A stretch of 64,000 bases of DNA, from positions 280,326 to 344,325 of the forward strand of contig NZ_JACHLP010000005.1 of NCBI RefSeq assembly GCF_014204525.1, written 5' to 3'. Origin of the DNA: Roseateles oligotrophus (GTDB lineage Bacteria > Pseudomonadota > Gammaproteobacteria > Burkholderiales > Burkholderiaceae_C). Each line of letters begins with the position of its first letter. Position 1 is the stretch's first letter. A program made the position numbers and the translations under genes. The notes under the pieces were generated by a model. That model saw only the letters and a program-made list of their open reading frames with translations, did no database searches and had not been told where the DNA came from. Shown here one piece after another: positions 19,871 through 35,676 of this stretch.

Positions 19871-20668
19871 TCAGGCCTGCTGAAGCCGCGGATGCTGGAG
19901 CGCCAGATCGACGTGATTGGCCTGGGCGACCACGCTGCCCAGCACCAGGATGGCGGGGCTGCGCAGGCCTTGCGTGCGGATGCTGTGGCCCAGGTTTTCG
20001 AGCGTGCAGATCAGGGACTGCTGCTGCGGGGTGTGGGCCGAGGCGATGGCCGCGGCCTGGGTCTGGGGCGCCATGCCTGCCTCGATCAAGGTTTGAACCA
20101 ATTGGTCTACTTGGCGCAAGCCCATGTAAATGACCAGGGTCAAGCCACTCTGAACCAGGGCCGGCCAGTTGGGCCCGCTAGGCCCGCCGTCCTGATCGGC
20201 ATTGTTTCGGCATTGCCCGGTCACAAAGGCGACACCCGGCGCGTGGCGGCGGTCCGTCACCGGGATGCCCAGGCTGGCGGGTGCGGCGATGCCGGCGGTG
20301 ATGCCGCTGAGGACCTCGACCGCAATGCCCGCGGCGCGCAGCGCGTCCACCTCCTCGCCACCGCGGCCGAACACAAAGGGATCGCCGCCTTTGAGCCGGA
20401 CGACCCGCAGCCCGGCCCGTGCCTCCCGGATCATCAACTCATGGATGAAGCGCTGCTCGGTCGAGGGCCGGCCGCCGCGCTTGCCCACAAAGATCCGCCG
20501 GGCGCGGGGATTGGCCAGGGCCAGCACCCGCGCGTCCACCAACTCGTCGCAGAGCAGGACATCGGCTTGTTGCAGGCGGCGCAAGGCCCCCAGGGTCAGC
20601 AAGTCGGGATCACCGGGGCCGGCGCCGACAAGGCTGAGGGGAAACAGGCTCGGGCTGCTGCTGTTCAT
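19871..20668 (-). CDS. cobA: uroporphyrinogen-III C-methyltransferase (CobA/SumT)
   Basis: A 265-residue SAM-dependent methylase that makes precorrin-2, the first step from uroporphyrinogen III to siroheme, the cofactor of NirB. Family motifs are VGAGPGDPDLLTL at the start, VRLKGGDPFVFGRGGEE near residue 90, SGITAGIAAPA and YMGLRQ. The ATG at 20668 overlaps the nasA stop by four bases. As the last gene of the nitrate assimilation operon it would supply siroheme during nitrate growth. It lacks the CysG oxidase/ferrochelatase domains, so another enzyme must finish siroheme. Confidence 0.95.
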   Translation of the reverse strand: MNSSSPSLFPLSLVGAGPGDPDLLTLGALRRLQQADVLLCDELVDARVLALANPRARRIFVGKRGGRPSTEQRFIHELMIREARAGLRVVRLKGGDPFVFGRGGEEVDALRAAGIAVEVLSGITAGIAAPASLGIPVTDRRHAPGVAFVTGQCRNNADQDGGPSGPNWPALVQSGLTLVIYMGLRQVDQLVQTLIEAGMAPQTQAAAIASAHTPQQQSLICTLENLGHSIRTQGLRSPAILVLGSVVAQANHVDLALQHPRLQQA

Positions 20669-23487
20669 GCTTTCATCTCCTCGCGATAAGGGTGTTGGGT
20701 TTCGAGCCGGCGCAGGGCCGGCAGGCAGGAACCGCATTGGCCACCACAGCCCAGCGTGCCCTGCAGGGCTTGCAGACGCGCCGTGCTTGAGCCCGGCAGG
20801 CGGGTCAGGGCCTGGCAGATGGCGGCCTCGGAGACGCCCAGGCAGTTGCAGACCTGGGGGCTGCGATCGCTGGCCGGGCCGGCGCCTGCCTCGTTCTGCG
20901 GCCGCGGCGAGAGCAGGCGGGCGCCCAGGCCGGCCAGCCCGCTGCGCAGCCGCCACAGATCGAGCAGATAGGCCCAGGCCTCTTGCTCGCCTGCTTGAGC
21001 CGGCTCGCCCATCAGCAGCAGGGCGCGCAGCCTTGCCGTCTCGCCGGGCTGGCTCAGAGCCAGCAGGCGGCTGCGGCCTTTCTGGCCGTCGGCATAACGC
21101 AGCACTTGGGCGCTGTTGAGCGCCAGCAGGGTTTTCAGGTGCTGCAATACCTCGGCGCGCGGCGCCAGGGCCGCGGCGGCGTCAAAGCGCCAGCCCAGCT
21201 CCGGCACATCGCCGGCCGCGGCCACCGGCAGGCATTGGGCAAAGCTGAACTCGCGCATCAAGCCGCGCAGCGCGGCGCGCAGGGACTGGCCTTGCTCCGG
21301 CGGGCACCAGACCGCCGCGCACAGCCGCCAGGGCAGCTGGGCCGCCTGCACCTGCACGGCGGCGAACTTCAGCTCGGGCTGCTGCGAGCTGGGGCAAAAA
21401 GCGCGGTTGCTCAAGGCGTTGACGCCGCTGAAGGGCGCGGCCTCGGCCTCCTGCCCGGACACAAACTCCTCGCCCCAGTGCATGGGCAGATAGGCCTGGG
21501 CGGGGCGCAGGCTGGCGTCGGCCAGCACGGGCAGGATCAGCTCGCCGTGGCGGGAGCTGATGCGCGCCAGCTCGCCCGTTCTGAGCCCGCGCGAGTGCAG
21601 GTCCTGCGCATGCATATGCAGGGCCGGCTGCGCCGTGTGGCCAAACAGGCGCGGCACCAGGCCGCTGCGGCTCATGCCATGCCATTGCTCGCGCAAACGG
21701 CCGCTCGTCAGGGCCAGGGGGTAGCGGGCGTCCAGGCGGTCGTGGGGGGGCTGGTAGGGCTGGGCGATGAAGCGGGCACGGCCATCGGCGGTGGCGAAGC
21801 GCCGGTCCTGGTAGAGGCGCGCCTGGCCCTGGCTGGCGCCCGCCGGGAAGGGCCATTGCTGCGGGCCCAAGCTGTCCAGCAAGGCATAGCTGAGGCCGCT
21901 GATGTCCAGGTCGCGGCCGGCCGTGGCGGCGCGGTGCTCCAGCCAAAGCGCCTCGGGCGTGGCCGCCGCCAGCAGCGCGGGCCCGGGGCCCGACTTGAGC
22001 AGGGGCAGCAGGGCCAGGCCCACATCGCGCACGATGCGCCAGTCGGCCCGCGCCTCGCCGGGCGGCGCGATGGCCGCGCGGACGCGGCTGATGCAGCGTT
22101 CGGAGTTCGTCACCGTGCCCTCTTTTTCGCCCCAGCTGGCGGCCGGCAGCAGCACGTCGGCAAAGGCCGCCGTGGCGGTGTCGGCAAAGGCTTCCTGCAG
22201 GATGACCAGCTCGCAGCGCGCCAGGGCGCGGCGCACCAGGGCCTGGTCGGGCATGGACTGGGCCGGGTTGGTGCAGGCTATCCACAAGACCTTGATCTCG
22301 CCGCGGGCCGCGGCCTCGAACATCTCCACCGCCGTCTTGGCCGGCGCCTCGGGCAGCTCGGCCTGGCCCCAGAGCGCGGCCACCTCGGCGCGGTCCTGGG
22401 CCGAGCCCGGGTCGCGGTGGCCGGGCAGCAGCGTGGCCATGCCGCCCACCTCGCGCCCGCCCATGGCATTGGGCTGGCCGGTGAGCGAAAAAGGCCCGGC
22501 GCCGGGCCGGGCGATCTGGCCGCAAGCCAGGTGCAGATTGATCAGGGCGCTGTTCTTGGCCGTGCCGCTGCTGCTCTGGTTGAGGCCCTGGCAGTACAGC
22601 GACAGGCTGGCCGGCGACTGCGCAAACCAGCGCGCCGCCTGCAGCAGATCGGCCTCCTTGATGCCGCACAGCCGCGCCGCTTCTGGCGGCGGCAGCTCGC
22701 GCACAAGGTTTTTGAGCTCGGCAAAGCCCTGGGTGTGCTCGGCGATGAAACGGGCGTCCAGCCAGCCCTCCCAGATGCAGGCGTGCAAAAGCCCGTGGCA
22801 AAGAATGACATCGGTGCCGGGCAGGATCTGCAGATGCAGATCGGCCAGCTCGGCCGTCTCGGTGCGGCGCGGGTCGACGACGATGAGCTTCTGCTCGGGC
22901 CTGCGCTGCCTGGCCGCCTCCAGGCGCCGGAACAGGATGGGGTGGGCCCAGGCCGGGTTGGCGCCGGTGATGAGGATGCAGTCGGCCAGGTCCAGGTCTT
23001 CGTAGCAGGTCGGCGGCGCGTCGGCGCCCAGGCTTTGCTTGTAGCCGGCCACGGCGGAGCTCATGCAGAGCCGGGAGTTGCTGTCGATATTGTTCGTGCC
23101 CAGCACGCCGCGGGCGAATTTATTGAAGGCGTGGTAGTCCTCGCTCAGCAATTGGCCGGAGATGTAGAGGCCGAAGGCTTGCGGGCCATGCTGGGCATGC
23201 AGCGCGGCCAGGCGCTCGGCCAGGCGCTGGTTCATCGTGGGCCAGTCCAGCGCCTGCGGCGGCTCGGCGCGCGAGGGCCGCCAGGCGGGCTGCAAGAGGC
23301 GCTGCGTGCGGCGGATCAGCGGCGTGGCGGTCAGATGCAGGGTCTGGCCCTTGCTGCACAGCCGGCCCCGGTTGGCCGGATGGGCGGGGTCGCCGCGCAC
23401 GCCGCAGATCTCGCCGGCCTCGCTTTCGATGATCACGCCGCAGCCCACCCCGCAGTAAGGGCAGGTCGACGCCGTTTCCTTACGCAT
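20665..23487 (-). CDS. nasA: assimilatory nitrate reductase catalytic subunit NasA
   Basis: A 940-residue cytoplasmic molybdopterin enzyme reducing nitrate to nitrite. The N-terminal 4Fe-4S motif uses C9, C12, C16 and C44. Molybdopterin-guanine-dinucleotide binding domains follow, including the NSRLCMSSAVAGYK segment with a cysteine that is the likely Mo ligand. The C-terminus carries an added BFD-like 2Fe-2S domain (CNCLGVSE ... CGGQCGSC), found in NasA/NasC proteins that take electrons from a flavoprotein or NAD(P)H partner. No separate NasB-type reductase is in this operon, so the electron donor is not evident. It overlaps nirD by 8 bases. Confidence 0.95.
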   Translation of the reverse strand: MRKETASTCPYCGVGCGVIIESEAGEICGVRGDPAHPANRGRLCSKGQTLHLTATPLIRRTQRLLQPAWRPSRAEPPQALDWPTMNQRLAERLAALHAQHGPQAFGLYISGQLLSEDYHAFNKFARGVLGTNNIDSNSRLCMSSAVAGYKQSLGADAPPTCYEDLDLADCILITGANPAWAHPILFRRLEAARQRRPEQKLIVVDPRRTETAELADLHLQILPGTDVILCHGLLHACIWEGWLDARFIAEHTQGFAELKNLVRELPPPEAARLCGIKEADLLQAARWFAQSPASLSLYCQGLNQSSSGTAKNSALINLHLACGQIARPGAGPFSLTGQPNAMGGREVGGMATLLPGHRDPGSAQDRAEVAALWGQAELPEAPAKTAVEMFEAAARGEIKVLWIACTNPAQSMPDQALVRRALARCELVILQEAFADTATAAFADVLLPAASWGEKEGTVTNSERCISRVRAAIAPPGEARADWRIVRDVGLALLPLLKSGPGPALLAAATPEALWLEHRAATAGRDLDISGLSYALLDSLGPQQWPFPAGASQGQARLYQDRRFATADGRARFIAQPYQPPHDRLDARYPLALTSGRLREQWHGMSRSGLVPRLFGHTAQPALHMHAQDLHSRGLRTGELARISSRHGELILPVLADASLRPAQAYLPMHWGEEFVSGQEAEAAPFSGVNALSNRAFCPSSQQPELKFAAVQVQAAQLPWRLCAAVWCPPEQGQSLRAALRGLMREFSFAQCLPVAAAGDVPELGWRFDAAAALAPRAEVLQHLKTLLALNSAQVLRYADGQKGRSRLLALSQPGETARLRALLLMGEPAQAGEQEAWAYLLDLWRLRSGLAGLGARLLSPRPQNEAGAGPASDRSPQVCNCLGVSEAAICQALTRLPGSSTARLQALQGTLGCGGQCGSCLPALRRLETQHPYREEMKA

Positions 23488-23857
23488 GGCAGGGCCCGGC
23501 GCGCAGGGGCTGGAACTCTAGGCCCTGGCTGTCCAGCTGGGCCTGGTCCAGATAGACCTCGCCGGCCTCGACCCTGACCTCGAAGCGGGCCGCACAGCCC
23601 TCGTCGGGCGCCAGGGCCTGGCCGCTGTCCAGCGCGATGGTCCAACCATGCAGGGGGCAGGCCACGGCCTCGCCAAACACCAGGCCCTGGCTCAAGGGCC
23701 CGCCCTTGTGCGGGCAGCGGTCCAGCAGGGCGTAGACCCGATCGCCGGCGACGCGGAACAGGGCCACATCGGGGCCGCGGGCGCGCTGGACGCGGCGGGC
23801 GCCCAGCAAGGGGATGTCGGCGAGGGCGCAGATATGGCGCCAGTTGCTCTTGCTCAT
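23480..23857 (-). CDS. nirD: nitrite reductase small subunit NirD
   Basis: A 125-residue Rieske-type protein. The two Rieske motifs are CPHKGG (C48-H50) and CPLHGW (C67-H70), so it may bind a 2Fe-2S cluster, unlike some NirD proteins that have lost it. NirD partners NirB to reduce nitrite to ammonium in the cytoplasm. It lies 14 bases after nirB and overlaps nasA by 8 bases. Confidence 0.93.
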   Translation of the reverse strand: MSKSNWRHICALADIPLLGARRVQRARGPDVALFRVAGDRVYALLDRCPHKGGPLSQGLVFGEAVACPLHGWTIALDSGQALAPDEGCAARFEVRVEAGEVYLDQAQLDSQGLEFQPLRAGPCHA

Positions 23858-23871
23858 GGGGCACCTTTGCT

Positions 23872-26322
23872 TCAGACGGGGACAAACTGGCGCAGATCCA
23901 GCTGCGCCTTGGCGTGCTCGAACCAGGGATCGGGCTCGCCGGAGAGGGCGAACTGCAGTTCGGCCCAGAGGGCGCGGCGGCCTTCCAGGTCGTCCAGCAC
24001 GCGCGCCTTCACATGGTCCATGCCCACGCGCGCCAGATAGTGCACGGTGCGTTCCAGATACCAGCCCTCGCTTCGATAGAGCTGCATGAAGGCGCCGGTG
24101 ATTTCCATCACCTCCTCGGCCGTCTTGACCTTGCAGAAGAACTGCGCCACCTCGGTCTTGATGCCGCCGTTGCCGCCGATGTAAAGCTCCCAGCCGCTGT
24201 CCACGCCGATGATGCCCACGTCCTTGATGCCGGCCTCGGCGCAGTTGCGCGGGCAGCCGCTGACGGCGAACTTGACCTTGTGCGGGGCATACATGCGCCA
24301 CATGGCGCGCTCCAGGTCCTTGCCCATGCGGGTGCTGTCCTGGGTGCCCATGCGACACCACTCCGAACCCACGCAGGTCTTCACCGTGCGCAAGGCCTTG
24401 GCATAGGCATGGCCCGAGGGCATGCCGATATCGGCCCAGACCTGGGGCAGGTCTTGCTTCTTGACGCCCAGCAGGTCGATGCGCTGGCCGCCGGTGACCT
24501 TGACGGTGGGAATCTTGTATTTGTCCACCGCATTGGCGATGCGGCGCAGCTCGTCGGCCGTGGTCTCGCCGCCCCACATGCGCGGGATCACCGAGTACGT
24601 GCCGTCCTTCTGGATATTGGCGTGGGCCCGCTCGTTGATGGGGCGGGACTGCGGGTCGTCCACCGCCTCCTTGGGCCAGGTGGAGAGCAGGTAGTAGTTG
24701 AGGGCAGGGCGGCAGCTGGGGCAGCCATTGGGCGTGCGCCAGCTCAGGGCCTCGTAGAGCTGGGGCAGGCGGGTCAGATGCTCTTTGCGTATGGCCTCGC
24801 GCACATCCTGGTGGCTCAGCTCGGTGCAGGCGCACAAAGCCTTTTTCTTCGGGCTGGCGGAGTAGTCGCCGCCGGCCGTGAACATCAGCAACTGCTCGAC
24901 CAGGCCGGTGCAGGAGCCGCAAGAGGCGCTGGCCTTGGTGTGCTTGCGCACCTCTTCCAGCGTGAACAAGCCCTTGTCCTTGATGGCCTTGCAGATGCTG
25001 CCCTTGCTGACCCCGTTGCAGCCGCAGACCTCGTCGCTATCGGCCATGGCGGCCGCCTTGCTATGGCCTTGGTGGCCGACATCGCCGATATTCGATTCGC
25101 CGAACATCAGCTTGTCGCGGATATCGCTGAGCTTGCGCCCTTCGCGCAGCAGCTTGAAATACCAGCTGCCGTCCACCGTGTCGCCGTAGAGGCAGGCGCC
25201 GATCAGCCTGTCATCGCGCAGCACCAGCTTTTTGTAGACGCCGCCGCTCTTGGAGAAGGGGTCGCTGAGCACGATCTCCTCGGTGCCCTCGCCGCCCATG
25301 AAATTACCCGCCGAGAACAGGTCGATGCCGGTCACCTTGAGCTTGGTCGAGGTCTGCGAGCCGCCGTAGCGGCCGATGCCGAACTGCGCCAGATGGGTGG
25401 CGCAGACCTTGGCCTGCTCGAACAGCGGCGCCACCAGGCCGTAGGCCACGCCGCGGTGGGCGGCGCATTCGCCCACCGAGTAGATGCGCGGATCGGTGAC
25501 GGTCTGCAAGGTGTCGCTGACGACGATGCCGCGGCTGCAGTGCAGGCCGGCGCTTTCGGCCAGCGCGGTATTGGGGCGTATGCCGGCGGCCATCACGACC
25601 AGGTCGGCGGGGATCTCCTGGCCGTCCTTGAAGCGGACGGCCATCACGCGGCCTTGCGGGTCGGGGATCAGGGCCTCGGTCTGCGCGCCCAGCAGGAAGC
25701 GCAGGCCGCGCGCCTGCAGGGATTGGCGCAGCATATCGCCGGCCACATCGTCCAGCTGGCGCTCCATCAGCCAGCCCGCGATATGCACCACCGTCACCTG
25801 CATGCCCCGCAGCATCAGGCCGTTAGCGGCCTCCAGGCCCAGCAGGCCGCCGCCTATCACCACCGCGTGCTGGTAGCGCGCGGCGGCGGCCAGCATGGCC
25901 TGGGTGTCGGCGATGTCGCGGTAGGCCACCACGCCGTCCAGCTCCTTGCCCGGCACGGGCAGGATGAAGGGGCTGGAGCCGGTGGCGATCAGCAGGCGGT
26001 CGTAGTCGGCCTTTGTGCCGTCCTCGGCCACGACGCGGCGCTTGATGCGGTCGATCTGCTGCACTTTCTTGCCCAGGTGCAGGGTGATGCCGTGGCCGGC
26101 ATACCAGTCCAGGGGGTTGAGGATGATGTCCTCGATCTGCATCTCGCCGGCCAGCACGGGGCTGAGCAGGATGCGGTTGTAATTGGGGTGCGGCTCGGCG
26201 CCGAAGACGGTGATGTCGTAGAGCTCGGGCGCGATCTTCAGCAATTCCTCCAGGGCGCGGACCCCGGCCATGCCATTGCCGATCAGCACCAGCTTTTGTT
26301 TGGGCTTTGCGTCTGTGTTCAT
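23872..26322 (-). CDS. nirB: NAD(P)H nitrite reductase large subunit NirB
   Basis: An 816-residue siroheme enzyme that reduces nitrite to ammonium. The FAD-binding start GNGMAGVRALEEL and a second dinucleotide motif GGGLLGLEAANGL give the flavin/NAD module. A BFD-like 2Fe-2S region (VCGCNGVSKG ... SCGSCTG) follows near residues 430-480. The C-terminal sulfite/nitrite reductase half carries the siroheme and 4Fe-4S cysteines in TCVGSEWCRMGTQDS and SGCPRNCAEA. The ATG at 26322 overlaps the nrtD stop (ATGA). It is the assimilatory enzyme, unrelated to NirS. Confidence 0.97.
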   Translation of the reverse strand: MNTDAKPKQKLVLIGNGMAGVRALEELLKIAPELYDITVFGAEPHPNYNRILLSPVLAGEMQIEDIILNPLDWYAGHGITLHLGKKVQQIDRIKRRVVAEDGTKADYDRLLIATGSSPFILPVPGKELDGVVAYRDIADTQAMLAAAARYQHAVVIGGGLLGLEAANGLMLRGMQVTVVHIAGWLMERQLDDVAGDMLRQSLQARGLRFLLGAQTEALIPDPQGRVMAVRFKDGQEIPADLVVMAAGIRPNTALAESAGLHCSRGIVVSDTLQTVTDPRIYSVGECAAHRGVAYGLVAPLFEQAKVCATHLAQFGIGRYGGSQTSTKLKVTGIDLFSAGNFMGGEGTEEIVLSDPFSKSGGVYKKLVLRDDRLIGACLYGDTVDGSWYFKLLREGRKLSDIRDKLMFGESNIGDVGHQGHSKAAAMADSDEVCGCNGVSKGSICKAIKDKGLFTLEEVRKHTKASASCGSCTGLVEQLLMFTAGGDYSASPKKKALCACTELSHQDVREAIRKEHLTRLPQLYEALSWRTPNGCPSCRPALNYYLLSTWPKEAVDDPQSRPINERAHANIQKDGTYSVIPRMWGGETTADELRRIANAVDKYKIPTVKVTGGQRIDLLGVKKQDLPQVWADIGMPSGHAYAKALRTVKTCVGSEWCRMGTQDSTRMGKDLERAMWRMYAPHKVKFAVSGCPRNCAEAGIKDVGIIGVDSGWELYIGGNGGIKTEVAQFFCKVKTAEEVMEITGAFMQLYRSEGWYLERTVHYLARVGMDHVKARVLDDLEGRRALWAELQFALSGEPDPWFEHAKAQLDLRQFVPV

Positions 26323-27125
26323 GCGGCCAGCTCCGTCCGCGCATGGCGGGTGTAGAGGAAATCGATCACCGCCTTGCGGGCGGCGATATAGCCCGGGTCT
26401 TCCGCCAGGGCCACCCGCTCGCGCGGGCGCGGCAGGTTGACCTTGAGGATCTCGCCAATCGTCGCGGCGGGGCCATTGCTCATCATCACGATGCGGTCGC
26501 TCAGCAGCACGGCCTCGTCCACATCGTGGGTCACCATCACCACCGTGCTCTGGGTGCGCGCCACGATCTGCAGCAACGCATCCTGCAGATGGGCGCGCGT
26601 CAGCGCGTCGAGCGCGCCAAAAGGCTCGTCCATCAGCAAGACCTTGGGCTCCATGGCCAGGGCGCGGGCAATGCCCACGCGCTGCTTCATGCCGCCCGAG
26701 ATCTCGCCCGGCTTCTTGTTCAAGGCATGCGCCATGCCCACCAAGTGCAGGGCCTGCTCGGTGCGGGCCCGCAGCTGCGACCTGCTTTCCTGCGCGCCGA
26801 ACACCGACTCCACGCCCAGATAGACGTTGTCGAAACAGCTCAACCAGGGCAACAGGGAGTGGTTCTGGAACACCACGGCGCGCTCCGGGCCGGGGGCATG
26901 GATCTCGCGCTCCTCGCACAGCAGCACGCCGCTGCTGGCCTGCAGCAGGCCCGCCATCAGATTGAGCAAGGTGGACTTGCCGCAGCCCGAGTGGCCGATC
27001 AAGGTGATGAACTCGCCGCGCTCGACCTGCAGATGAATATCGCGCAGGGCGTGGAAGCTGGCTTTGCGGGTCTTGAACTCCATCTCGACCGCCTGCACAT
27101 CGATGAAGGCTTTGTGCTTTTGCAT
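26319..27125 (-). CDS. nrtD: nitrate ABC transporter ATPase
   Basis: A 268-residue ABC ATPase. The Walker A motif GHSGCGKST is near residue 44, the signature ISGGMKQR near 142, and Walker B VLLMDEPFGALD near 162. The type matches NrtD/NasD of nitrate importers. Only one ATPase is encoded, so it probably forms a homodimer with NrtB. It sits 4 bases after nrtB and overlaps nirB. Confidence 0.95.
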   Translation of the reverse strand: MQKHKAFIDVQAVEMEFKTRKASFHALRDIHLQVERGEFITLIGHSGCGKSTLLNLMAGLLQASSGVLLCEEREIHAPGPERAVVFQNHSLLPWLSCFDNVYLGVESVFGAQESRSQLRARTEQALHLVGMAHALNKKPGEISGGMKQRVGIARALAMEPKVLLMDEPFGALDALTRAHLQDALLQIVARTQSTVVMVTHDVDEAVLLSDRIVMMSNGPAATIGEILKVNLPRPRERVALAEDPGYIAARKAVIDFLYTRHARTELAA

Positions 27126-27129
27126 CAGC

Positions 27130-28035
27130 TCACTCCGTAAAAGAAAAGCGTTCGGCCAGGCTCACCAGGGCCTGCTCCAGCGCCATGCCGACGATGCCGA
27201 TGACGAAGATGGCGATGATGATGTGGGCGACATTGAGGTTGTTCCACTCGTCCCAGACCCAGAAACCTATGCCTACGCCGCCGGTCAGCATCTCGGCCGC
27301 CACGATCACCAGCCAAGCCGTGCCCACGCTCAGGCGCACGCCGGTCAGCACATAGGGCAGGATGGCGGGCAGATAGATCTGGGTGATCAGCTTCCACTCG
27401 CTCAGGCGCAGCACCCGGGCCACATTGAGATAGTCCTGCGGCACCCGCTGCACGCCCACGGCGGTGTTGACGACCATGGGCCAGATGGAGCAGATGAAGA
27501 GCGTCCAGATGGCGGCCGGATTGGCGCTCTTGAACACCAGCAGCCCGATCGGCAGCCAGGCCAGCGGCGAGACCGGTTTGAGCAGGCTGATCAGGGGCGA
27601 GAGCATGCGGCCGATGAACTCGAAGCGCCCGATCACAAAGCCCAGCGGGATGCCCACGGCCGCCGCCAGGCCAAAACCCAGGGCCACGCGCTGCAGCGAG
27701 GCCAGGATGTTCCAGCCTATGCCCTGGTCATTGGGCCCCTTGCTGTAGAAGGGCTCGGCGAAGAGCTGCAGGGCCGAGGCCCAGGTCTGCCCCGGCGTCG
27801 GGAAGGCGCCGCCTTTCTGCGTGAACAGGCCCCACAAACCTATCGCCAAGGCCAGGCCGAGCAGCGGAGGCAGCAGGCGCATCCACAGGCCTTGCCAGTC
27901 GAAGCGTGCGGCGGCCGGGCCGGCATTCGCCGCGGGCTGCGCGGGCGCCGTGGCTGAGGGAGGAGAGAGCGGGGAGAGCGAGGAAGAGGGGGCCTCTGCC
28001 TCGCCGCGGGGGGAGTGGAACACGGCACTGACCAT
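27130..28035 (-). CDS. nrtB: nitrate ABC transporter permease
   Basis: A 301-residue inner membrane permease with six expected helices and the binding-protein-dependent EAA-type loop (NVARVLRLSEWKLITQIYLPAILPY split over residues 200-225). The proline- and serine-rich first 40 residues are unusual. The ATG at 28035 has a strong AAGGAG site. It belongs to the NrtB/SsuC-type group and lies between nrtA and the ATPase gene. Confidence 0.94.
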   Translation of the reverse strand: MVSAVFHSPRGEAEAPSSSLSPLSPPSATAPAQPAANAGPAAARFDWQGLWMRLLPPLLGLALAIGLWGLFTQKGGAFPTPGQTWASALQLFAEPFYSKGPNDQGIGWNILASLQRVALGFGLAAAVGIPLGFVIGRFEFIGRMLSPLISLLKPVSPLAWLPIGLLVFKSANPAAIWTLFICSIWPMVVNTAVGVQRVPQDYLNVARVLRLSEWKLITQIYLPAILPYVLTGVRLSVGTAWLVIVAAEMLTGGVGIGFWVWDEWNNLNVAHIIIAIFVIGIVGMALEQALVSLAERFSFTE

Positions 28036-28051
28036 TACAGCTCCTTGTTGT

Positions 28052-29305
28052 TCAAGCCTTGAGTTTGAAAGCGTCGGCATAGGCGGCGGGGGCCTTGCCG
28101 TCCCATAGCGTGCCGTCGACCAGCCTGGCGCTGCGCATGGGATCCTTGGGCACGGCGATCTTGAGTTGGGCGGCGGCCTGTTTGTAGAGCTCGATCTGGT
28201 TGATCTGCTGGGCCAGGGCCAGATAGTCCGGGTGGCTCTTCAGCAAGCCCCAGCGCTTGTGCTGGGTCAGGAACCACATGCCATCGCTCAGATAGGGGAA
28301 GTTGACCGCGCCATCGGCGAAGAACTTCATGGCATGGGGCTCGTCCCAGGTCTTGCCCAGGCCGTTCTGGTAGCGGCCCAGAATGCGCTGGCTGATGGCG
28401 TCGACGCTGGTGTTGACATAGGCCTTGTCGGCGATCACCTCGGCCATCTTCAGCTTGTTCTGCAGGCTGGCGTCTATCCAGCGGCCGGCTTCCAGCACGG
28501 CCATGATGACGGCGCGGGCCGTGTTGGGGTATTTCTTGGCGAAATCGCCGCTGCTGGCCAGCACTTTCTCGGGGTGGTCCCTCCAGATGTCTTGCGTGGT
28601 CGTCGCGGTGATGCCGATGCCGTCCATGATGGCGCGGTGGTTCCAGGGCTCGCCGACGCAATAGCCGTCCATATTGCCCACCCGCATATTGGCCACCATC
28701 TGGGGCGGGGGCACGGTGATGACCTTGCTGTCCTGCAAGGGATGGATGCCCTGGGCCGCCAGCCAGTAGTAAAGCCACATGGCGTGGGTGCCGGTCGGAA
28801 AGGTCTGCGCGAATACATATTCCCGCTTTTCCTTGCTCATCAGCTTGGCCAGGCTGGGGCCATCCACGGCCCCCTTGTCTGCCAGCTTTTTTGACAAGGT
28901 GATGGCCTGACCGTTCTGGTTCAGCGTCATCAGGACGGCCATGTCTTTCTTGGGGCCGGCGATGCCCAGATGCACGCCATACACCATGCCGTACAAGGCA
29001 TGGGCCATGTCCAGTTCGCCATTGACCAGCTTGTCGCGCACACCGGCCCAGGAGGCCTCCTTGCTGGCGACGATCTTGATGCCGTACTTCTTGTCAAAGC
29101 CCAGCACCGAGGCCATCACCAGCGAGGCGCAATCGGTCAGTGGAATAAAGCCGATACGGACCTCGTCCTTCTCCGGCTTGTCCGAGCCGGCGGCCCAGGC
29201 GCCGCCCGGCAGCGCGGCCCCCAGTGCGGCGCTCGCCGCGCCAGCCACCCATTGGCGTCTTTGCTCACTCATCAAACCTCTATTGATCTCGGCAACCTTG
29301 CGCAT
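28052..29305 (-). CDS. nrtA: nitrate-binding protein NrtA
   Basis: A 417-residue periplasmic solute-binding protein for nitrate/nitrite import. The leader has an RRQW twin-arginine-like motif followed by AAGSDKPEKDE, suggesting Tat export. Family motifs include IGFIPLTDCASLV, the AHALYGMVYGVHLG region and YCVGEPWNHRA. The start ATG at 29305 has GAGGAG eight bases before it. An ATG at 29272 would also keep the signal. This is the first structural gene of the assimilation operon, 41 bases after the leader terminator. Confidence 0.95.
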   Translation of the reverse strand: MRKVAEINRGLMSEQRRQWVAGAASAALGAALPGGAWAAGSDKPEKDEVRIGFIPLTDCASLVMASVLGFDKKYGIKIVASKEASWAGVRDKLVNGELDMAHALYGMVYGVHLGIAGPKKDMAVLMTLNQNGQAITLSKKLADKGAVDGPSLAKLMSKEKREYVFAQTFPTGTHAMWLYYWLAAQGIHPLQDSKVITVPPPQMVANMRVGNMDGYCVGEPWNHRAIMDGIGITATTTQDIWRDHPEKVLASSGDFAKKYPNTARAVIMAVLEAGRWIDASLQNKLKMAEVIADKAYVNTSVDAISQRILGRYQNGLGKTWDEPHAMKFFADGAVNFPYLSDGMWFLTQHKRWGLLKSHPDYLALAQQINQIELYKQAAAQLKIAVPKDPMRSARLVDGTLWDGKAPAAYADAFKLKA

Positions 29306-29345: not shown

Positions 29346-29364
29346 AAAAAAGGCGTCTCGACGC
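29346..29364 (-). terminator. leader terminator upstream of nrtA
   Basis: The minus strand reads GCGTC-GA-GACGC followed by a run of six T. The small hairpin is tight, but the GACGCCTTT arm can alternatively pair with P2 over nine bases around an inner hairpin (about 29370-29400), giving a stronger terminator. Confidence 0.7.
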
Positions 29365-29465
29365 TTCCCCAGGCCGATCGGCAATCCATGCCGGCCGGCC
29401 TGCGAAAAGAGTCGGACGCCTTTGCCCGATCCAACAATCCCTAACCCACGCCTTTGTGGGTCCTG
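29346..29465 (-). ncRNA. ANTAR two-hairpin antitermination leader of the nrtA operon
   Basis: Reading the minus strand, hairpin P1 (29445-29460) is CCCAC-AAAGGC-GTGGG and hairpin P2 (29413-29428) is CGGGC-AAAGGC-GTCCG. Both have the same six-base loop with A at position 1 and G at position 4, the signature recognised by ANTAR proteins such as NasR and NasT. A terminator follows at 29346-29364 with six T residues. Nine bases of P2 (AAAGGCGTC) are exactly complementary to GACGCCTTT in the terminator, so the two structures exclude each other. Confidence 0.85.
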
Positions 29466-29475
29466 CTCAGGTATC

Positions 29476-29491
29476 AGCACAATGCGTGCCA
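29476..29491 (-). promoter_or_regulatory. sigma-54-type promoter of the nitrate assimilation operon
   Basis: The minus strand reads TGGCACGCATTGTGCT. It matches TGGCAC-N5-TTGCW at all but one fixed position, with the invariant GG and GC in correct spacing. The predicted start near 29465 is only five bases before hairpin P1, which supports both assignments. Confidence 0.75.
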
Positions 29492-29520
29492 GCTTGTTCA
29501 GGCCTTGTTTGCCCGCCGCC

Positions 29521-29567
29521 TGCACGCTTTGCGCGCAATTCCTCTCGGCTGAGCGCCATCTTGGTGC
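29521..29567 (-). promoter_or_regulatory. two candidate NtrC enhancer sites
   Basis: TGCACG-CTTTG-CGCGCA (29521-29537) and GCGCC-ATCTT-GGTGC (29553-29567) are imperfect palindromes resembling TGCACC-N5-GGTGCA. They lie about 60 and 95 bases upstream of the predicted sigma-54 start, the usual range for NtrC. The second site overlaps the region just before the nasT stop. Confidence 0.5.
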
Positions 29568-29577
29568 GGCGGCGGAG

Positions 29578-30180
29578 TCATGTGGGGCGAAGCAGGGACT
29601 GCGCTTCAATGATGCGTTCGGCCACCTCCGCCAGCGCCGCGCCGCGGTCCATGGCCAGGCGGCGCAGGCGTTGGTAGGCGGCGTCTTCGTCCAGGCCCAG
29701 TTCGGCCATCAGAATGCCTTTGGCGCGCTCGATGCGCTTGCGGGCCGCCAACTGGGCCTCGCTGCGGTCCAGCTTCTGCCGCAGGGCCAGGTCTTGCTCG
29801 AAGCGGGCAATGGCAAGCTGCATCACCGCGGCCAGCCGCTGCGGCTGCAGTCCGGCGACCACATAGGCGCTGACGCCTGCCTTCAAGGCCCCACGCATGG
29901 GTGCGTCGCTGCCGTCCTCGGCAAACACCACCACCGGTTTGGGGCTTGCTTCATTCAGCGCGGCGAGATTCTCCAGCGTGTCGCGGGAGGGCGAGTTGCT
30001 GTCCACGATGACCACATCGGGCCGCAGGCGCAGCACGCAATCGTGGATCAGCGTGGCCTGCTCGATCACGCCCACTACCTCGCAGCCTTGGCGGGCCAGC
30101 TCCTGCTGGATCAGCTGGAGGTGGTGGGCGCCATCATTGATCAGCAGAACGCGCAAGGGTGAAGGTGGTGGTTTGGGCAT
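29578..30180 (-). CDS. nasT: ANTAR-domain antiterminator NasT
   Basis: A 200-residue protein with an N-terminal receiver-like domain (about 8-125) and a C-terminal ANTAR RNA-binding domain (about 140-195; RIERAKGILMAELGLDEDAAYQRLR). The receiver keeps an aspartate (VIVDSN) but lacks the usual Thr/Ser and Lys switch residues, so it is probably not controlled by normal phosphorylation. In known systems NasT is held by the nitrate sensor NasS and, when released, binds the two-hexaloop leader to prevent termination. It reads toward the nrtA leader. No nasS is next to it. Confidence 0.92.
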   Translation of the reverse strand: MPKPPPSPLRVLLINDGAHHLQLIQQELARQGCEVVGVIEQATLIHDCVLRLRPDVVIVDSNSPSRDTLENLAALNEASPKPVVVFAEDGSDAPMRGALKAGVSAYVVAGLQPQRLAAVMQLAIARFEQDLALRQKLDRSEAQLAARKRIERAKGILMAELGLDEDAAYQRLRRLAMDRGAALAEVAERIIEAQSLLRPT

Positions 30181-30227: not shown

Positions 30228-31172
30228 CTATTCGACGCTGCGATCTGGCACCGACTTGGGCGCATAGCCGAAATAGCGCCGGAATGCCGCGCTGAAGTTG
30301 GACGGATGCTGGAAGCCCGTCCGGTAAGCGACGCTGGACACACGCTCGCCTGCAGCCAGCAGGTCCAGCGCGGCTTGCATGCGCACCTCCGTCAGCATGC
30401 GATACGGTGTGCTGCCGAACAGCTCGCGAAAGCCTTGTTTCAATGTGAACTCGTTGCTGCCGACTTGCGCGCACAGCCAAGCCACCGTCAGCGCCTGGTC
30501 GAAATGCTGGTGAATGAGCTCGCGGGCCGCGCAGATGCGGCGGTACTCGTCCGGCCGCCAGGCCGCTGGCTTGGCGGGCGGCGCCATGCAGCGGCCTTGC
30601 TCCGCCAGCAGGCTGAGCGCGGCGATCTGAATCTCCAGCAAAGAAGCGTCTGGCCTGGCATGGCCTTGCAGCAGCCTCTGCGCGAGACGGCTGAGCACCG
30701 GCTTGCTGGCGCCATGAAACACCTGGCAAGCGCTTCCGGCGCTCTGTGCGGGCGCAAGAGCCAGCGCTTCCAGCGAATACCGCCTTAGTGCCACGGTGTC
30801 CACAATCAGCCGCAGCTGGCATACATCGTCCCCGGCCCGGTAACGCCGCAGGCCGCGCGTCGCGCGCGCGGCGGTCACCGTGGTGTGGCCCGCCAGGAAG
30901 TCGAGCACGGCGCCGGCCGAGCTTTGGTAGCTGGAGGCGCCGGCCAGCGCGATCGTGACGGTCAGCGAAGGCGTGTCGCGTTCGATCACACTTTCCTCCA
31001 GCAGATCCCGTTGCGGCCGGTAGCGGGAGATGGCCAGGGTCAGGCCCTCGTCCAGGCGCAGGCGGTCGGCATATCCGATGCCGAGTTCGGCGGGGATGCG
31101 GGAGCGCTCCCAAGCCAAGCCGCCGTGCTCCTTCGTGCTGATGAGGTCGGTGCTCGAGAGTCGATAGCTCAT
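30228..31172 (-). CDS. AraC-family regulator of siderophore uptake (PchR-like)
   Basis: A 314-residue regulator with a C-terminal double helix-turn-helix (about 215-310; GSNEFTLKQGFRELFGSTPYRML split across the second half), typical of PchR and related siderophore-responsive activators. I chose the ATG at 31172, which has a GGAGGA site. Longer starts would run through the direct repeats and Fur box. It is divergent from a TonB-dependent receptor. Such proteins usually bind the ferric siderophore and activate the receptor gene. The ligand here is unknown. Confidence 0.88.
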   Translation of the reverse strand: MSYRLSSTDLISTKEHGGLAWERSRIPAELGIGYADRLRLDEGLTLAISRYRPQRDLLEESVIERDTPSLTVTIALAGASSYQSSAGAVLDFLAGHTTVTAARATRGLRRYRAGDDVCQLRLIVDTVALRRYSLEALALAPAQSAGSACQVFHGASKPVLSRLAQRLLQGHARPDASLLEIQIAALSLLAEQGRCMAPPAKPAAWRPDEYRRICAARELIHQHFDQALTVAWLCAQVGSNEFTLKQGFRELFGSTPYRMLTEVRMQAALDLLAAGERVSSVAYRTGFQHPSNFSAAFRRYFGYAPKSVPDRSVE

Positions 31173-31185
31173 GGAATCCTCCCAA

Positions 31186-31218
31186 CCGGAATGCATACGA
31201 AACAATCCGGAATGCATA
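31186..31218. promoter_or_regulatory. direct repeats, candidate AraC-regulator operator
   Basis: The 12-base sequence CCGGAATGCATA occurs at 31186-31197 and again at 31207-31218, exactly 21 bases apart, which puts both on the same DNA face. This is the usual layout of an AraC-family operator. It lies between the divergent regulator and receptor genes, within the regulator's 5' leader. Confidence 0.7.
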
Positions 31219-31222
31219 AATA

Positions 31223-31241
31223 TCAAATGATAATCATTCTC
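31223..31241. promoter_or_regulatory. Fur box
   Basis: TCAAATGATAATCATTCTC matches 15 of 19 bases of the Fur consensus, including the 13-base palindrome AATGATAATCATT. It sits between the AraC regulator and the receptor start at 31303, so both are expected to be iron-repressed. Confidence 0.85.
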
Positions 31242-31302
31242 ATACAGGAATTAGAGTGCTCGTCAATCGGCAGCAAAGCTGCTTCATCGACGGCAAATTC
31301 CT

Positions 31303-33369
31303 ATGAACGATGCAATATGTGGCGAGCAGCGCCTCGCCTTACGGACACCTGCGCGGCGGCTGTGGCTGGGGCTGCTACGGCGCCATCTGCTGGCCGGCGC
31401 CTGCGGCGCTGCCTTGGGTGTGTGCAGCTCGGCCGGGGCTGCGGAGGCGGGGCCGCCAACGGCCGCGCTGCCGGCGGTGACGGTGCGTGCCGAGAAGCTG
31501 GTGCAAGCCTTGGAGAAGGTGCCGGCCAGTCTCACCGTACTTGAGGGCCAGGAGAGCGAGCGGGCGGGCTTCTCCAGCCTGGCGCAGCTGGAGGGGCGCG
31601 TTCCCGGCTTGTCCTTCCAACCCTTTGGGCAGGCCGGCCTGAACGCACCGGTGATGCGCGGCCTGACGGCCAATTTCAGCAGCTTCTCGACCGCCGCCCT
31701 GCTATTGGTGGACGGTGTGCCGATGTTGACGGCGCAGGGCTTTGAATACGACTTTCTCGACCTCGACCGGATCGAGGTCTTGCGCGGGCCGCAGTCGACG
31801 CTGTATGGGCGCAATGCGGAGGCGGGCGTGATTGCGGTCCATAGCCTGCCGATGGACGGTGCGCCGCGAGCCAGCATGTCCGCGGAGGCCGGCAGCCGTA
31901 ACAAGCGATGGCTGCGCTTCTCGCTCGGCCGCGCACTGCTTCCGGACACGCTGGCGGCCAGCATCGCCGGAGGCTGGTCCGGGCAACAGGGCTTTATCGA
32001 CAATCTGTATACCGGGCGGCGGGAGGACGAGCGCGAGCAGCTGCACCTCAATCTGGGCCTGCGCTGGACACCAACGGCGGCGACCGAGCTGGTACTGCGC
32101 TACACGCGGCAGCAGTACGACGACGGTGCAGCACTCTGGGGCAGCCCTGCGTCGTCGCGGGCCCAGGTCGCCTCGGGCACGCCGAGCTGGAATCGCTCGC
32201 GCGGCCAGACCTTGTCGCTCAATGCCACGCAGGGCTTGGCTGCGGGCTTGCGCTTGCAGGCGATCACCGCCTACAGCGCCTTGCTTGACCGCGTGCAACA
32301 AGACACCGACTTCAGGCCGGCCGACCTGCTGCATATCGGCCGCGACCATCATCTGCGCAATCTATCGCAGGAGCTGAGGCTGGAAGGGCGGCTTGGCACG
32401 GCCGACTGGCTGGCCGGCATCTACGCCGATCGGCAGGACGACGCTTTACACAATCTGGCGAAGTCACCGATGGGCGCCAGCGATCTGCGGGTGGCCAGGC
32501 AGGGGAATACCTTCGCCTTGTTCACGAACTGGAACCAGCCTTTGAGCTCGGCGTGGTCCCTGTCGGCCGGCGCCCGCGTCGAACGCAACACGGTGGAGAT
32601 CCTGCCAGAGGGCGATGCGCGGCGGCAGGCCGGCTGGACCCAGGTCTCGCCCAGGCTCGCGCTGCAGTCCCGCTTCGCCCGCGATCAGCAGTGGTATCTC
32701 AGCGCAAGCCGTGGCGTGCGCGCCGGGGGCTTCAACGTGCTTTCGCCGGCCGTGCATTACCTGCCTTACGAGCCCGAGAAGGTCTGGTCCTACGAGGTGG
32801 GCATCAAGGGCAGGGCGGCCGACCGACGGTTGCGCCACTCCCTCGCGGCTTACCTGATGGAGGTCCGTGATATGCAGGTCATGCAGATGCCCGCGCCCGG
32901 CCTGGCCTATATCACCAGCGCCGCGGCGGCACGGTCCAAGGGCCTGGAGCTGGAGCTTGACTATCTGCCCGGCGGCGGCTGGCAGATCAAGAGCGGGCTG
33001 AGCTGGAACCACACCCGTTTCGAGCGCTTCCGCGACGCTGCCGCCGACTATGCCGGCAAACACAATCCCTTCGCTCCCGATTGGAGTGGCCACATCGGCC
33101 TGCGCTACGAGGCGCCTTCGGGCTGGTATGCGCAGGCGGGCTTGGTGGGCATGGGCAAGGTCTATCTCGACGCCGCGAACCGCTACGCACGCCAGGGCCA
33201 TGGTTTGCTGAACCTTCTCGGCGGCTATGCGCGAGGCGCATGGGAGTTCGCGGCCTACGCGAACAACGCTGCCAACAAACGCTACGACGCCGTGGGCTAC
33301 CAGAACGGTTTCGTGACGGTATTCAGCCCGCCGCGTGAGTTGGGCGCACGGCTGAGCTGGCGCCAGTGA
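31303..33369 (+). CDS. TonB-dependent siderophore receptor (FyuA/FptA-like)
   Basis: A 688-residue outer membrane receptor. It has an export signal ending near AGAA, a TonB-box-like ALPAVTVRA segment, a plug domain (about 60-165; LLVDGVPM, DRIEVLRGPQSTLYGRNAEAG split) and a 22-strand barrel ending in LGARLSWRQ. The plug resembles FyuA-type yersiniabactin/pesticin receptors more than catecholate receptors. It imports a ferric siderophore using TonB energy. It shares its promoter region with the AraC regulator and is followed by a methyltransferase and an MFS transporter. The exact siderophore cannot be read from sequence. Confidence 0.92.
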   Translation: MNDAICGEQRLALRTPARRLWLGLLRRHLLAGACGAALGVCSSAGAAEAGPPTAALPAVTVRAEKLVQALEKVPASLTVLEGQESERAGFSSLAQLEGRVPGLSFQPFGQAGLNAPVMRGLTANFSSFSTAALLLVDGVPMLTAQGFEYDFLDLDRIEVLRGPQSTLYGRNAEAGVIAVHSLPMDGAPRASMSAEAGSRNKRWLRFSLGRALLPDTLAASIAGGWSGQQGFIDNLYTGRREDEREQLHLNLGLRWTPTAATELVLRYTRQQYDDGAALWGSPASSRAQVASGTPSWNRSRGQTLSLNATQGLAAGLRLQAITAYSALLDRVQQDTDFRPADLLHIGRDHHLRNLSQELRLEGRLGTADWLAGIYADRQDDALHNLAKSPMGASDLRVARQGNTFALFTNWNQPLSSAWSLSAGARVERNTVEILPEGDARRQAGWTQVSPRLALQSRFARDQQWYLSASRGVRAGGFNVLSPAVHYLPYEPEKVWSYEVGIKGRAADRRLRHSLAAYLMEVRDMQVMQMPAPGLAYITSAAAARSKGLELELDYLPGGGWQIKSGLSWNHTRFERFRDAAADYAGKHNPFAPDWSGHIGLRYEAPSGWYAQAGLVGMGKVYLDAANRYARQGHGLLNLLGGYARGAWEFAAYANNAANKRYDAVGYQNGFVTVFSPPRELGARLSWRQ

Positions 33370-33403
33370 GGGCGAGCCTGAAACAAGGACAAGGAACATT
33401 CTG

Positions 33404-34438
33404 ATGACGATGAACTTCAAAGAAGACCATGCGCTGCAGCCATTCTGGCAATTGGTTGCAGCCCCCATCCAGACGCAGGCCTTGGAGCTGGCACTCGCGA
33501 AGGGTTTGCTGAATGCGCTGGAACATCACGCAACGATCGACGAGGTGGCCGAAAGATTTGCATTGCATCCGCGTAACACCGCCGTTTGGCTGGAGCTGCT
33601 GTGGAGCATGGGCATGCTCTCGCGCATTCGGCCCATGGGCGCTTACGCCACGATGTACGTCGCTTCGCCCCTGGCGCGGCGGTTTTTTTCACCGGCCTCC
33701 GCCGAGGACTGCTCGCAGGCCTGGCTGTACCGTGCCGGCTTTCTGCGCGGCTTTGCCGGGCAGATGGGCGATTTCATTGCGCAAGCCGAGGCGGCGCCGC
33801 CGGCCGAGCCGGCGAATCCAGCGGCCTGGGCCCGCGCCGCCCAGGCGCAGATTGCCCAGGAGCAACGCGCCGTGACCGTGCCGGCCGCTTTGCAACTGCT
33901 GCGCAATCTGCCCGCTCTTCCGGCATGCTGCCGTTTTCTCGATCTTGGCGGCGGCCCCGGCCTCGTGGCCATTGCCCTGGCCACGACCTATGCCGCCTGG
34001 CAGGGCACGGTCTGCGATCTGCCAGAGGCGGCCCAGATCGCGCAAGCGAATATCGATGAAGCAGGGCTGTCGTCCCGCATCGCCACGCTGGGCGCCAATC
34101 TTGACCGGGACCCGATAGGCAGTGGCTACGATCTGATCTGGTGCTCATCCGTGCTGCACTTCGTGCAAGACATCGACGCCGTGTTGCGCAAGATGTTCCA
34201 GGCATTGAAGCCGGGCGGGCGACTGCTTCTGGCGCATGCCGAGCAGCGCGAGGATGCCGAAATATGCGCACGGGTGCTGCCTTTTTACACGCCGATGCGG
34301 ATGCGAGGTCGGTATCTGCCGGAGCAGGGCGAGCTCGCAAGCGCCATGATCGATGCAGGCTTTGAGCCGGTCGATGCGCTGGAGCCGGCGTGCTTCCCGA
34401 TGGCGCCAGCCTGGGTCTATATCGGCAGGCGCCCATGA
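33404..34438 (+). CDS. class I SAM-dependent methyltransferase (O-methyltransferase-2 type fold)
   Basis: A 344-residue methyltransferase. An N-terminal winged-helix dimerisation domain (about 10-95) is followed by a Rossmann domain with the SAM motif FLDLGGGPGLVAIALA near residue 182 and the acidic D in CDLPEAA. This is the layout of small-molecule O-methyltransferases. It has an AAGGA site and lies 34 bases after the receptor gene. Its stop overlaps the MFS start (ATGA), so it clearly belongs to the uptake operon. Its substrate is unknown; no siderophore synthetase is present nearby. Confidence 0.85.
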   Translation: MTMNFKEDHALQPFWQLVAAPIQTQALELALAKGLLNALEHHATIDEVAERFALHPRNTAVWLELLWSMGMLSRIRPMGAYATMYVASPLARRFFSPASAEDCSQAWLYRAGFLRGFAGQMGDFIAQAEAAPPAEPANPAAWARAAQAQIAQEQRAVTVPAALQLLRNLPALPACCRFLDLGGGPGLVAIALATTYAAWQGTVCDLPEAAQIAQANIDEAGLSSRIATLGANLDRDPIGSGYDLIWCSSVLHFVQDIDAVLRKMFQALKPGGRLLLAHAEQREDAEICARVLPFYTPMRMRGRYLPEQGELASAMIDAGFEPVDALEPACFPMAPAWVYIGRRP

Positions 34439-35676
34439 GCGTCAGCGCACAGCGCGGGGCTGCATCGTGGTGGCCGCAGCACTTGGTTCTGGCTTGGCTC
34501 CACCTGGCGTTGTCGGCGCCGCTCATCTATCTGTACCTCGGGCTGCCGCTGCTGCTGCGCCAGCAGGGTTGGAGTGGCACCTCGATCGGCTTGCTGCAGT
34601 TGGCCGGCTTGCCGGCCATGCTGAAATTCGTGCTGGCCCTGCCCATCGAACGCCTCCGTCTGGGCCAGGCCAATTACCGCAACTGGGCCGCCCTGCTGGG
34701 CTTGGCCTATGCCGCAGCGCTGGCTTTGCTCGCGCTCCATGATCTGGCGCACAGCCCGCGCTGGCTGCTGTTTGGCCTGGCCATGGCGGTCAATCTGCTG
34801 GGAACCTGGGTCGATGTGCCGACCAATGCGCTCGCCATTGAAATCCTGCCGGAATCTGAGCGTGTTCGCGCCGGCGCCATTCGGTCGGCCGCGACCTCGC
34901 TGGGCGCCATCGTGGGCGGCGGCCTCGCACTCTTGATCCATGGGCGTTTTGGCTGGGCCGGCACCTTCATGGCGCTGACCGCCCCCGTGGTGTTGGGCGC
35001 TGCACTGATATTTGCCTTGCCGGCGAAGCGGGCAGGGCGGGCACCCGTCCCCGTGGCAGTGAAAGCAGGGTGGCGGGAGTGGATCGGCTACTTTGGCCTG
35101 CCGCAGCGTCGGCGCTGGTGCTTGCTGATGCTGTGCTACTTCCCCTTTGTGGGGGCCGCCTGGGTCTATCTGAAGCCCTTGCTGCTCGATCAGGGCTTCG
35201 AGCCGCAGCGGATCGCGATGCTCGTGGGCCTTGCCGGCGGTTTGGTCGGGGCGGTCTCCAGCCTAGCGGGTGCCTACCTGACGCGCGTCCTGGGGCTGGC
35301 CAGGACCTTGCCGGGCTTTGCCGTGTTCAATGTGATCGCATTGAGCGTCTTGCTCGCGGCCACGGTCTTGGCGACGTCAGCGCCTGTCTTCATGCTGGCC
35401 GCACTGATGGTTGCGGTGGCGATGGGCGCAAGCGCCGGGCTGGTGTTCGGCGCCATGATGTTCCATATTCGTCCGGGACTTGCCGCGCTGGACTACGGCC
35501 TGCAATCCAGCCTCTTTGTTCTTGCGCGTACGCTGGTGCCGTTTGCCGCCGGCGTATTGCTGGACCGTTTCGGTTATGCCGGGATGTTGGTCGGGTTGCT
35601 TGCCGGAACAGGATTTGCGTTGCTGCTGGCCTCGGGGATGGGGACTTCGGGCAAGCCGAGCGGGGCTCATCGCTGA
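34435..35676 (+). CDS. MFS transporter, RhtX/FptX-like siderophore importer
   Basis: A 413-residue membrane protein with twelve expected helices. It resembles the RhtX/FptX group, which carries ferric siderophores across the inner membrane as single proteins: note GLPLLLRQQGWSGTSIGLLQ at the start and TWVDVPTNALAIEIL near residue 125. It starts at the ATG overlapping the methyltransferase stop. With the TonB receptor it would complete uptake into the cytoplasm without an ABC transporter. Confidence 0.85.
   Translation: MSVSAQRGAASWWPQHLVLAWLHLALSAPLIYLYLGLPLLLRQQGWSGTSIGLLQLAGLPAMLKFVLALPIERLRLGQANYRNWAALLGLAYAAALALLALHDLAHSPRWLLFGLAMAVNLLGTWVDVPTNALAIEILPESERVRAGAIRSAATSLGAIVGGGLALLIHGRFGWAGTFMALTAPVVLGAALIFALPAKRAGRAPVPVAVKAGWREWIGYFGLPQRRRWCLLMLCYFPFVGAAWVYLKPLLLDQGFEPQRIAMLVGLAGGLVGAVSSLAGAYLTRVLGLARTLPGFAVFNVIALSVLLAATVLATSAPVFMLAALMVAVAMGASAGLVFGAMMFHIRPGLAALDYGLQSSLFVLARTLVPFAAGVLLDRFGYAGMLVGLLAGTGFALLLASGMGTSGKPSGAHR

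Follow-up and report, generated by a model that had tools for sequence, protein, structure and literature searches.

Probable NtrC/sigma-54 and ANTAR antitermination control in front of nrtA of Roseateles oligotrophus, and a candidate nitrate sensor for NasT

The leader between nasT and nrtA of Roseateles oligotrophus, analysed here within a 64,000-nucleotide stretch of DNA (the window) and across related genomes, is best read as a layered control region, and we consider it very likely that NtrC/sigma-54 initiation is followed there by ANTAR antitermination. This reading is preferred because nasT adjoins the leader, both of its mutually exclusive folds are conserved with compensating changes, and the promoter lies at a few fixed distances from the first hairpin, P1. 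By sequence comparison, the elements are present and conserved, both exclusive folds covary, and the leader occurs once in the genome. From these we infer that NtrC would activate the promoter, that NasT would bind the RNA and permit read-through, and that the genes behind the leader would form one transcript.

Under nitrogen limitation, NtrC together with sigma-54 would initiate transcription some 3 nt ahead of P1. If no active NasT is present, P1 would form and the sequence of the second hairpin, P2, would pair with GACGCCUUU, creating a terminator that would stop the transcript before nrtA. Active NasT would bind the A1/G4 hexaloops and keep P2 folded, blocking the terminator, and with the terminator blocked nrtA-nrtB-nrtC-nirB-nirD-nasA would be transcribed. 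One RNA loop would thereby serve as both protein target and terminator strand. Dual-hexaloop ANTAR antitermination is a published mechanism (PMC3369931, PMC8934654; these and all other papers are cited from excerpts), and the embedding of P2 in the terminator is likewise a published arrangement (PMC8934654). The switch design itself is therefore already known, and the window holds a covariation-supported example of it.

The nrtA leader and its gene neighbourhood

All leader elements lie on the minus strand, as do nasT and the genes from nrtA to nasA. Directly upstream of the leader, nasT (29578..30180) encodes a 200-aa protein with a receiver-like domain ahead of an ANTAR domain (66.2 bits to PF03861), in which a domain search found no NIT domain. 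The nearest named NasT is that of a Paucibacter (81% identical), and the next come from Paucibacter, Mitsuaria, and Roseateles, which suggests that the genome belongs to that Sphaerotilaceae group. Farther upstream (30228-35676), an AraC-type regulator is followed by plus-strand frames that by eye are TonB-receptor-like, methyltransferase-like, and exporter-like, giving the locus a siderophore-like appearance.

Downstream, nrtA (28052..29305, start codon at 29305, beyond the terminator) encodes a protein matching NMT1_2 with 336.8 bits and NrtA of PDB 2g29 with E 2e-78. Its N terminus is twin-arginine signal-like (QRRQWVAGAAS) and nrtB follows directly, the two marks of an exported-type NrtA, and the protein is predicted to be exported. 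The nrtB permease (27130..28035) matches BPD_transp_1, and the longer frame 27130-28080 exceeds the TIGR01183 cut-off. The nrtC/D-type ATPase (26319..27125, 268 aa) exceeds the TIGR01184 cut-off and has no C-terminal NrtA-like domain. These are followed by nirB for the nitrite reductase large subunit (23872..26322; Pyr_redox_2, Fer2_BFD, and NIR_SIR domains), nirD for the small subunit (23480..23857; Rieske_2 domain), and a nasA-type assimilatory nitrate reductase gene (20665..23487), whose product has molybdopterin oxidoreductase domains and scores below the NCBIfam NasA/NasC cut-offs. Behind nasA, a tetrapyrrole methylase gene (19871-20668) probably serves the sirohaem of the nitrite reductase.

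The initiation elements comprise two NtrC-like sites, CGCACCAAGATGGCGCT at 29568-29552 and TGCGCGCAAAGCGTGCA at 29537-29521, each with three mismatches, and a sigma-54-like promoter, TGGCACGCATTGTGCT, at 29491-29476. The sigma-54 consensus is TGGCACGN4TTGCW, from which the promoter departs by the one mismatch that an earlier note on this DNA had reported (11 of 12 positions); the GG and GC of its -24/-12 element are 10 bp apart, as the sigma-54 type demands. By the usual distance from promoter to start, transcription would begin 3 nt before the P1 stem. The earlier note had placed the start five bases before P1; its position upstream of P1 and close to that figure stands, but the implied distance is 3 nt.

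The antitermination elements agree with that note as well. Two hairpins share the identical A1/G4 hexaloop AAAGGC: P1 (29462-29443, 7-bp stem, loop at 29455-29450) and P2 (29429-29412, 6-bp stem, loop at 29423-29418). The intrinsic terminator (29423-29346) has the 5' arm AAAGGCGTC and the 3' arm GACGCCTTT and ends in six T (29351-29346). Its 5' arm (29423-29415) is common to the P2 loop and the P2 3' stem, and these nine bases are exactly complementary to the 3' arm at 29357-29349. The 13-nt linker between P1 and P2 (29442-29430) can form a small hairpin of the GAUU/GAUC type that would bring P1 and P2 together.

Folding the whole leader in silico, a check proposed in the earlier note, returned P1 together with the terminator and P2 buried inside it (z -4.1). 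The terminator region (29424-29345) reached -53.6 kcal/mol with z -8.8, and none of 200 shuffles was as stable. P1 and P2 alone were only moderately stable relative to shuffles (-17.9 kcal/mol, z -2.1, 6 of 200 as stable), and the 3' side of the terminator without P2 (29372-29352) formed a short hairpin no better than shuffles (z +0.24). The protein-binding motifs were at chance level in the window, with one sigma-54 match carrying one mismatch against 1.2 expected, and 57 NtrC-like matches with up to three mismatches against 66 expected. Since window statistics alone are at chance level, whether these motifs are real was decided by conservation.

Conservation of the folds and the promoter

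For the hairpin count we used the best 30 matches among the relatives' loci, or 31 with the window genome. An NrtA-like gene follows the leader in 28 of them; two (L011 and L015) have none downstream, and in L037 nasS follows after 12 nt. Two or more A1/G4 hexaloop hairpins are present in 25 of the 28 leaders, counting stems of at least 4 bp (L029, L030, and L038 have one), and in 32 of 37 named loci (fewer in L128, L144, L157, L165, and L173), single counts that include some chance because spare hexaloop matches also turn up. Fifteen leaders have a start-to-P1 distance of at least 25 nt, and 10 of them (L013, L019, L020, L024, L032, L108, L111, L136, L169, and L175) carry a third such hairpin between the implied start and P1, a count with an uncontrolled chance level; the window has no third hairpin.

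Covariation was assessed on an alignment of 26 of the 42 prepared leaders. The P1 and P2 stems are paired in 93.5% of cells, compared with 70.3% in shuffled and 31-46% in slid alignments, and their covariation score of 0.574 (0.139 shuffled) was equalled by none of 500 shuffles. Leader selection drew on the inner four pairs of each stem but not on the outer three pairs of P1, where changes on both sides occurred in 26 cells and 9 cells were unpaired. The competing helix between the P2 loop and the terminator 3' arm, which played no part in choosing leaders, is paired in 99.1% of cells (37-74% slid). Position 3 of the P2 loop changes together with its terminator partner (19 A-U, 6 C-G, and 1 unpaired among the 26 rows). 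Two of five measures for this helix did not or barely beat shuffles, namely further pair types (437 of 500) and both-side changes (22 of 500). Both folds are thus conserved with compensating changes in the 26 leaders, which bears out the mutually exclusive P2/terminator switch that had been proposed. A covariance model, in which the window itself is included, detected a single leader in the window genome. It gave matches in 19 genomes out of 39, many of which had supplied training rows; G020 and G041 have two each.

In a scan that required GG and GC, 42 of the 44 leaders have a sigma-54 site matching at least 10 of 12 positions ahead of P1, the exceptions being L132 (none) and L149 (6 of 12). 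The implied starts lie 1-13 nt (3 in the window), 25-29 nt, 39-42 nt, or, in L136, 59 nt from P1. The NtrC-like sites are moderately supported by comparison. Element 2 is present in all nine aligned close relatives (window included) and element 1 in all five rows long enough to cover it, and L122, L124, L139, L142, and L150 have good sites 87-90 bp upstream of the promoter. The two sites described earlier are therefore present and kept in close kin, although each is at chance level in the window alone. In Acidovorax citrulli, deletion of ntrC lowered 'nasS' transcripts, raised nasT transcripts, and abolished growth on nitrate (PMC10052978). Provided that this 'nasS' corresponds to the nrtA discussed here, the result would be consistent with a promoter lying between the two genes.

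One alternative, a plain terminator behind nasT and an unrelated promoter with no regulated switch, draws on the chance-level statistics of the single sites and on an Rfam search that returned nothing at gathering score for the window leader. It would leave unexplained why the hexaloop bases, both exclusive folds, and the promoter spacing are all conserved and why the assumed start is upstream of P1 in 43 of 43 leaders with a scored site, and we regard it as highly improbable.

Three known systems come closest. The Klebsiella nasF operon has an NtrC/sigma-54 promoter, probably like the window, and begins, as here, with a gene for a nitrate-binding protein. Its nitrate assimilation genes are controlled by ANTAR antitermination at the leader (PMC3795266), whereas NasR senses nitrate through its own NIT domain and the window protein has none. 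The eut leaders of Enterococcus faecalis, controlled by EutV, share the two small A1/G4 hexaloop hairpins with P1 free and P2 in the terminator (PMC8934654, PMC3369931). However, eut answers ethanolamine through the EutW kinase, and the sigma-54 promoter belongs to the window side. The eut linkers span 5-12 nt, and induction was impaired with a linker of 14 nt (PMC3369931), whereas the P1-P2 linker is 13 nt in the window and very variable in its kin. In the NasS-NasT systems of Paracoccus, Azotobacter, Bradyrhizobium, and Pseudomonas, a NasT-type ANTAR protein also acts on a nitrate-assimilation leader (PMC3795266, PMC5424462, PMC6759348, PMC7261876), and in Paracoccus NasT was shown to bind the nasA leader and a leader hairpin proved necessary (PMC3795266, PMC5424462). 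The window genome differs in having no NasS, its sole close relative being the exported-type NrtA behind the leader. The earlier note supposed control of the NasR/NasT type; an ANTAR protein, NasT, is indeed encoded directly upstream, but the genome has no NasS and the ANTAR protein no NIT domain.

NasT without NasS

Classical NasS is a signal-less relative of NrtA that holds NasT until nitrate binds (PMC3795266). It was not found in the window genome, a 5.34-Mb assembly with a completeness score of 100%, where nasT is present; the search can detect NasS, since it recovered NasS in G037. The genome encodes a single NrtA-like protein, the runner-up matching at E 0.07. Two of its proteins match NMT1_2, the weaker of them with 58 bits and a membrane-spanning or anchored start. 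An NrtA at least 69% identical to that of the window occurs in 31 of 59 genomes. In 21 of these 31, the Tat-signal-bearing NrtA behind the switch is the only NrtA/NasS-like match (E 1e-5 or better), the single NrtA of G001 being counted from two pieces of one masked gene. Many Burkholderiales relatives retain NasT and the RNA switch without NasS, a gap that this region exposes.

Ten of the 31 genomes hold further nitrate-binding-like matches, and in nine of them the second copies read have a twin-arginine or hydrophobic start. As a hidden NasS we rejected the second NrtA-like proteins of G022, G023, G026, G028, G030, G019, G024, and G056, genomes that each have one or more copies with a twin-arginine stretch, and the G041 copy and second G056 copy, with a hydrophobic start. 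In the tenth genome, G014, the frame of the second copy opens at the mature part and no signal is recognisable in the three upstream frames, so that it is either signal-less or broken; this reading concerns that copy, beside which G014 has a further fragment (C364).

Other sensor domains were considered as well. PilJ is a nitrate-binding domain in McpN (PMC6381276), and double-PilJ proteins were rejected as NasS substitutes in the window genome, where PilJ domains occur only in proteins of 646 and 782 aa. Among five double-PilJ proteins read, L183, L184, and L186 have a signal-like start, the frame of L185 starts inside an apparent one, and L187 is a different protein. In three relatives without NasS, the genes of the first three lie some 6-10 kb away from nasT. 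The second ANTAR protein of the window genome (L007) was also set aside, being of response-regulator type beside a histidine kinase, with a weak ANTAR match below cut-off and nothing that ties it to this leader. In G010 and G001, a gene near nrtABC encodes a second ANTAR protein, which carries a pair of PilJ domains at its C terminus (L078:1140-2585 and L080:1513-2931, both plus strand), and ANTAR and PilJ matches share one frame also in G024, G025, G028, and G014. In G020 (L014) and G034 (L038), a NIT-ANTAR protein of NasR type takes the place of nasT upstream of an NrtA-type gene. G020 has a clear dual-hexaloop leader at this place and a second one about 7 kb away.

NrtA as a candidate sensor of NasT

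In a genome without NasS, NrtA is the most economical sensor candidate. We put forward tentatively, at somewhat below even confidence, that NrtA would be the nitrate sensor of NasT in NasS-less operons. As a Tat substrate, NrtA would reach its folded state in the cytoplasm, where it could bind nitrate ahead of export. Such a bifunctional NrtA might hold NasT when nitrate-free and release it when nitrate-bound; where transport was taken over or lost, NrtA may have dropped its signal and survived as a dedicated NasS, which would have arisen several times. This reading as a whole, taken jointly, carries the same tentative standing. If NrtA already bound NasT, loss of the signal would give NasS in one step, and repeatedly, which makes NrtA the simplest candidate.

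The phylogeny of signal-less relatives bears on this proposal. In a rapid tree of 106 proteins, from which two rows were left out for shortness and which gave long-branch warnings, signal-less proteins of Massilia, Pseudoduganella, Thiobacillus, Crenobacter, Lysobacter, and Xanthomonas fell within the NrtA clade of the window. Careful trees of chosen rows agree, and a single clade of signal-bearing copies was rejected at p-AU 0.0036 (45 rows) and 1e-10 (53 rows), a grouping chosen after the first tree, with long branches and odd composition flagged. The 54- and 53-row trees give five changes of signal state, also the minimum forced by well-supported branches; L105 has no RR, and the 53-row tree without it gives the same five. 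One change separates classical NasS, and four fall inside the NrtA clade, at L124, G019, the Massilia-to-Xanthomonas group, and L144. If L144 is instead scored as signal-bearing, four changes remain, three of them inside. In our reading, the export signal was probably lost about four times inside the clade (three without the doubtful L144), and loss rather than gain is favored because the signal-less copies are nested there, as change counts alone cannot tell the two apart. Undibacterium griseum (L144) was discarded as clean support, since the model found no leader and inspection of the sequence showed a weak P1 and no terminator strand; the locus may be in decay.

In each lineage except Thiobacillus (L157), the signal-less copies lie directly behind nasT or behind nasT and the leader. 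G019, of the window's own family, has the order nasT, leader, signal-less copy (70% identical), signal-bearing canonical NrtA, nrtB, and two ATPase genes, and L124 has nasT, leader, signal-less copy, and canonical NrtA. In Pseudoduganella and Massilia (G060 and G061), the signal-less copy adjoins nasT with the leader downstream, and the signal-bearing NrtA adjoins nrtBC with neither nasT nor a leader within the surrounding 9 kb. The Xanthomonas, Lysobacter, and Crenobacter copies come directly after nasT at loci without an nrtB match, while the Thiobacillus copy, counted as signal-less because its RR precedes the start codon, lies downstream of transporter genes. Among named loci with enough sequence (that of L104, L105, L150, and L168 ends too soon), nrtB comes next after 26 of 26 signal-bearing copies and after none of six signal-less ones (L124, L144, L157, L161, L172, and L174); as these rows are related, the independent evidence amounts to three or four signal changes.

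Several observations count against NrtA as the sensor. Its export is predicted, L144 may be decaying, and in G020 and G034 a NIT-ANTAR protein replaces nasT, so that NrtA need not sense there. Recruitment of NrtA as sensor after the fact would moreover leave much the same picture. A test of relaxed constraint was not significant (Fisher p 0.095), with changes at positions shared with signal-less relatives versus NrtA-only positions numbering 8 versus 7 in NrtA copies unlinked to a NasT-type gene and 54 versus 117 in linked copies. Among the titles and excerpts covered by our literature search, which reached few subscription journals, no paper was recognised that describes NrtA as a sensor of NasT or NasT without NasS.

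Two other accounts of NasT compete with a sensing NrtA. NasT might be controlled by another partner, by direct ligand binding, or by phosphorylation, a serious possibility that we nonetheless find doubtful. The export signal of NrtA speaks for it, as do the long NIT- and PilJ-containing proteins of the window genome and the fusions of ANTAR to other nitrate sensors in its kin (NIT-ANTAR in G020, G034, and G010; ANTAR-PilJ in G010 and G001). However, among partner types other than AmiC-like ones no candidate gene stands beside nasT, the upstream neighbors being the AraC regulator and the TonB-type receptor, and signal-less relatives of the window NrtA adjoin nasT in several lineages. Alternatively, NasT could be sensor-less and always active, with NtrC alone controlling the operon and the leader only scaling output with the level of NasT. 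The genome has no NasS, and NasT, which NasS normally holds (PMC3795266), should be free once NasS is lost. A terminator with two hexaloops, conserved with compensation across the order, would then serve little, though, and NasS-like proteins beside nasT arose repeatedly in the clade, and two relatives have a nitrate-sensing NIT-ANTAR protein in place of NasT; we judge a permanently active NasT unlikely.

Were NrtA indeed the sensor of NasT, an exported receptor would perform a cytoplasmic regulatory job before leaving the cell, and the origin of NasS would become traceable. A transport receptor would then signal nitrate to the very RNA switch that governs its production.
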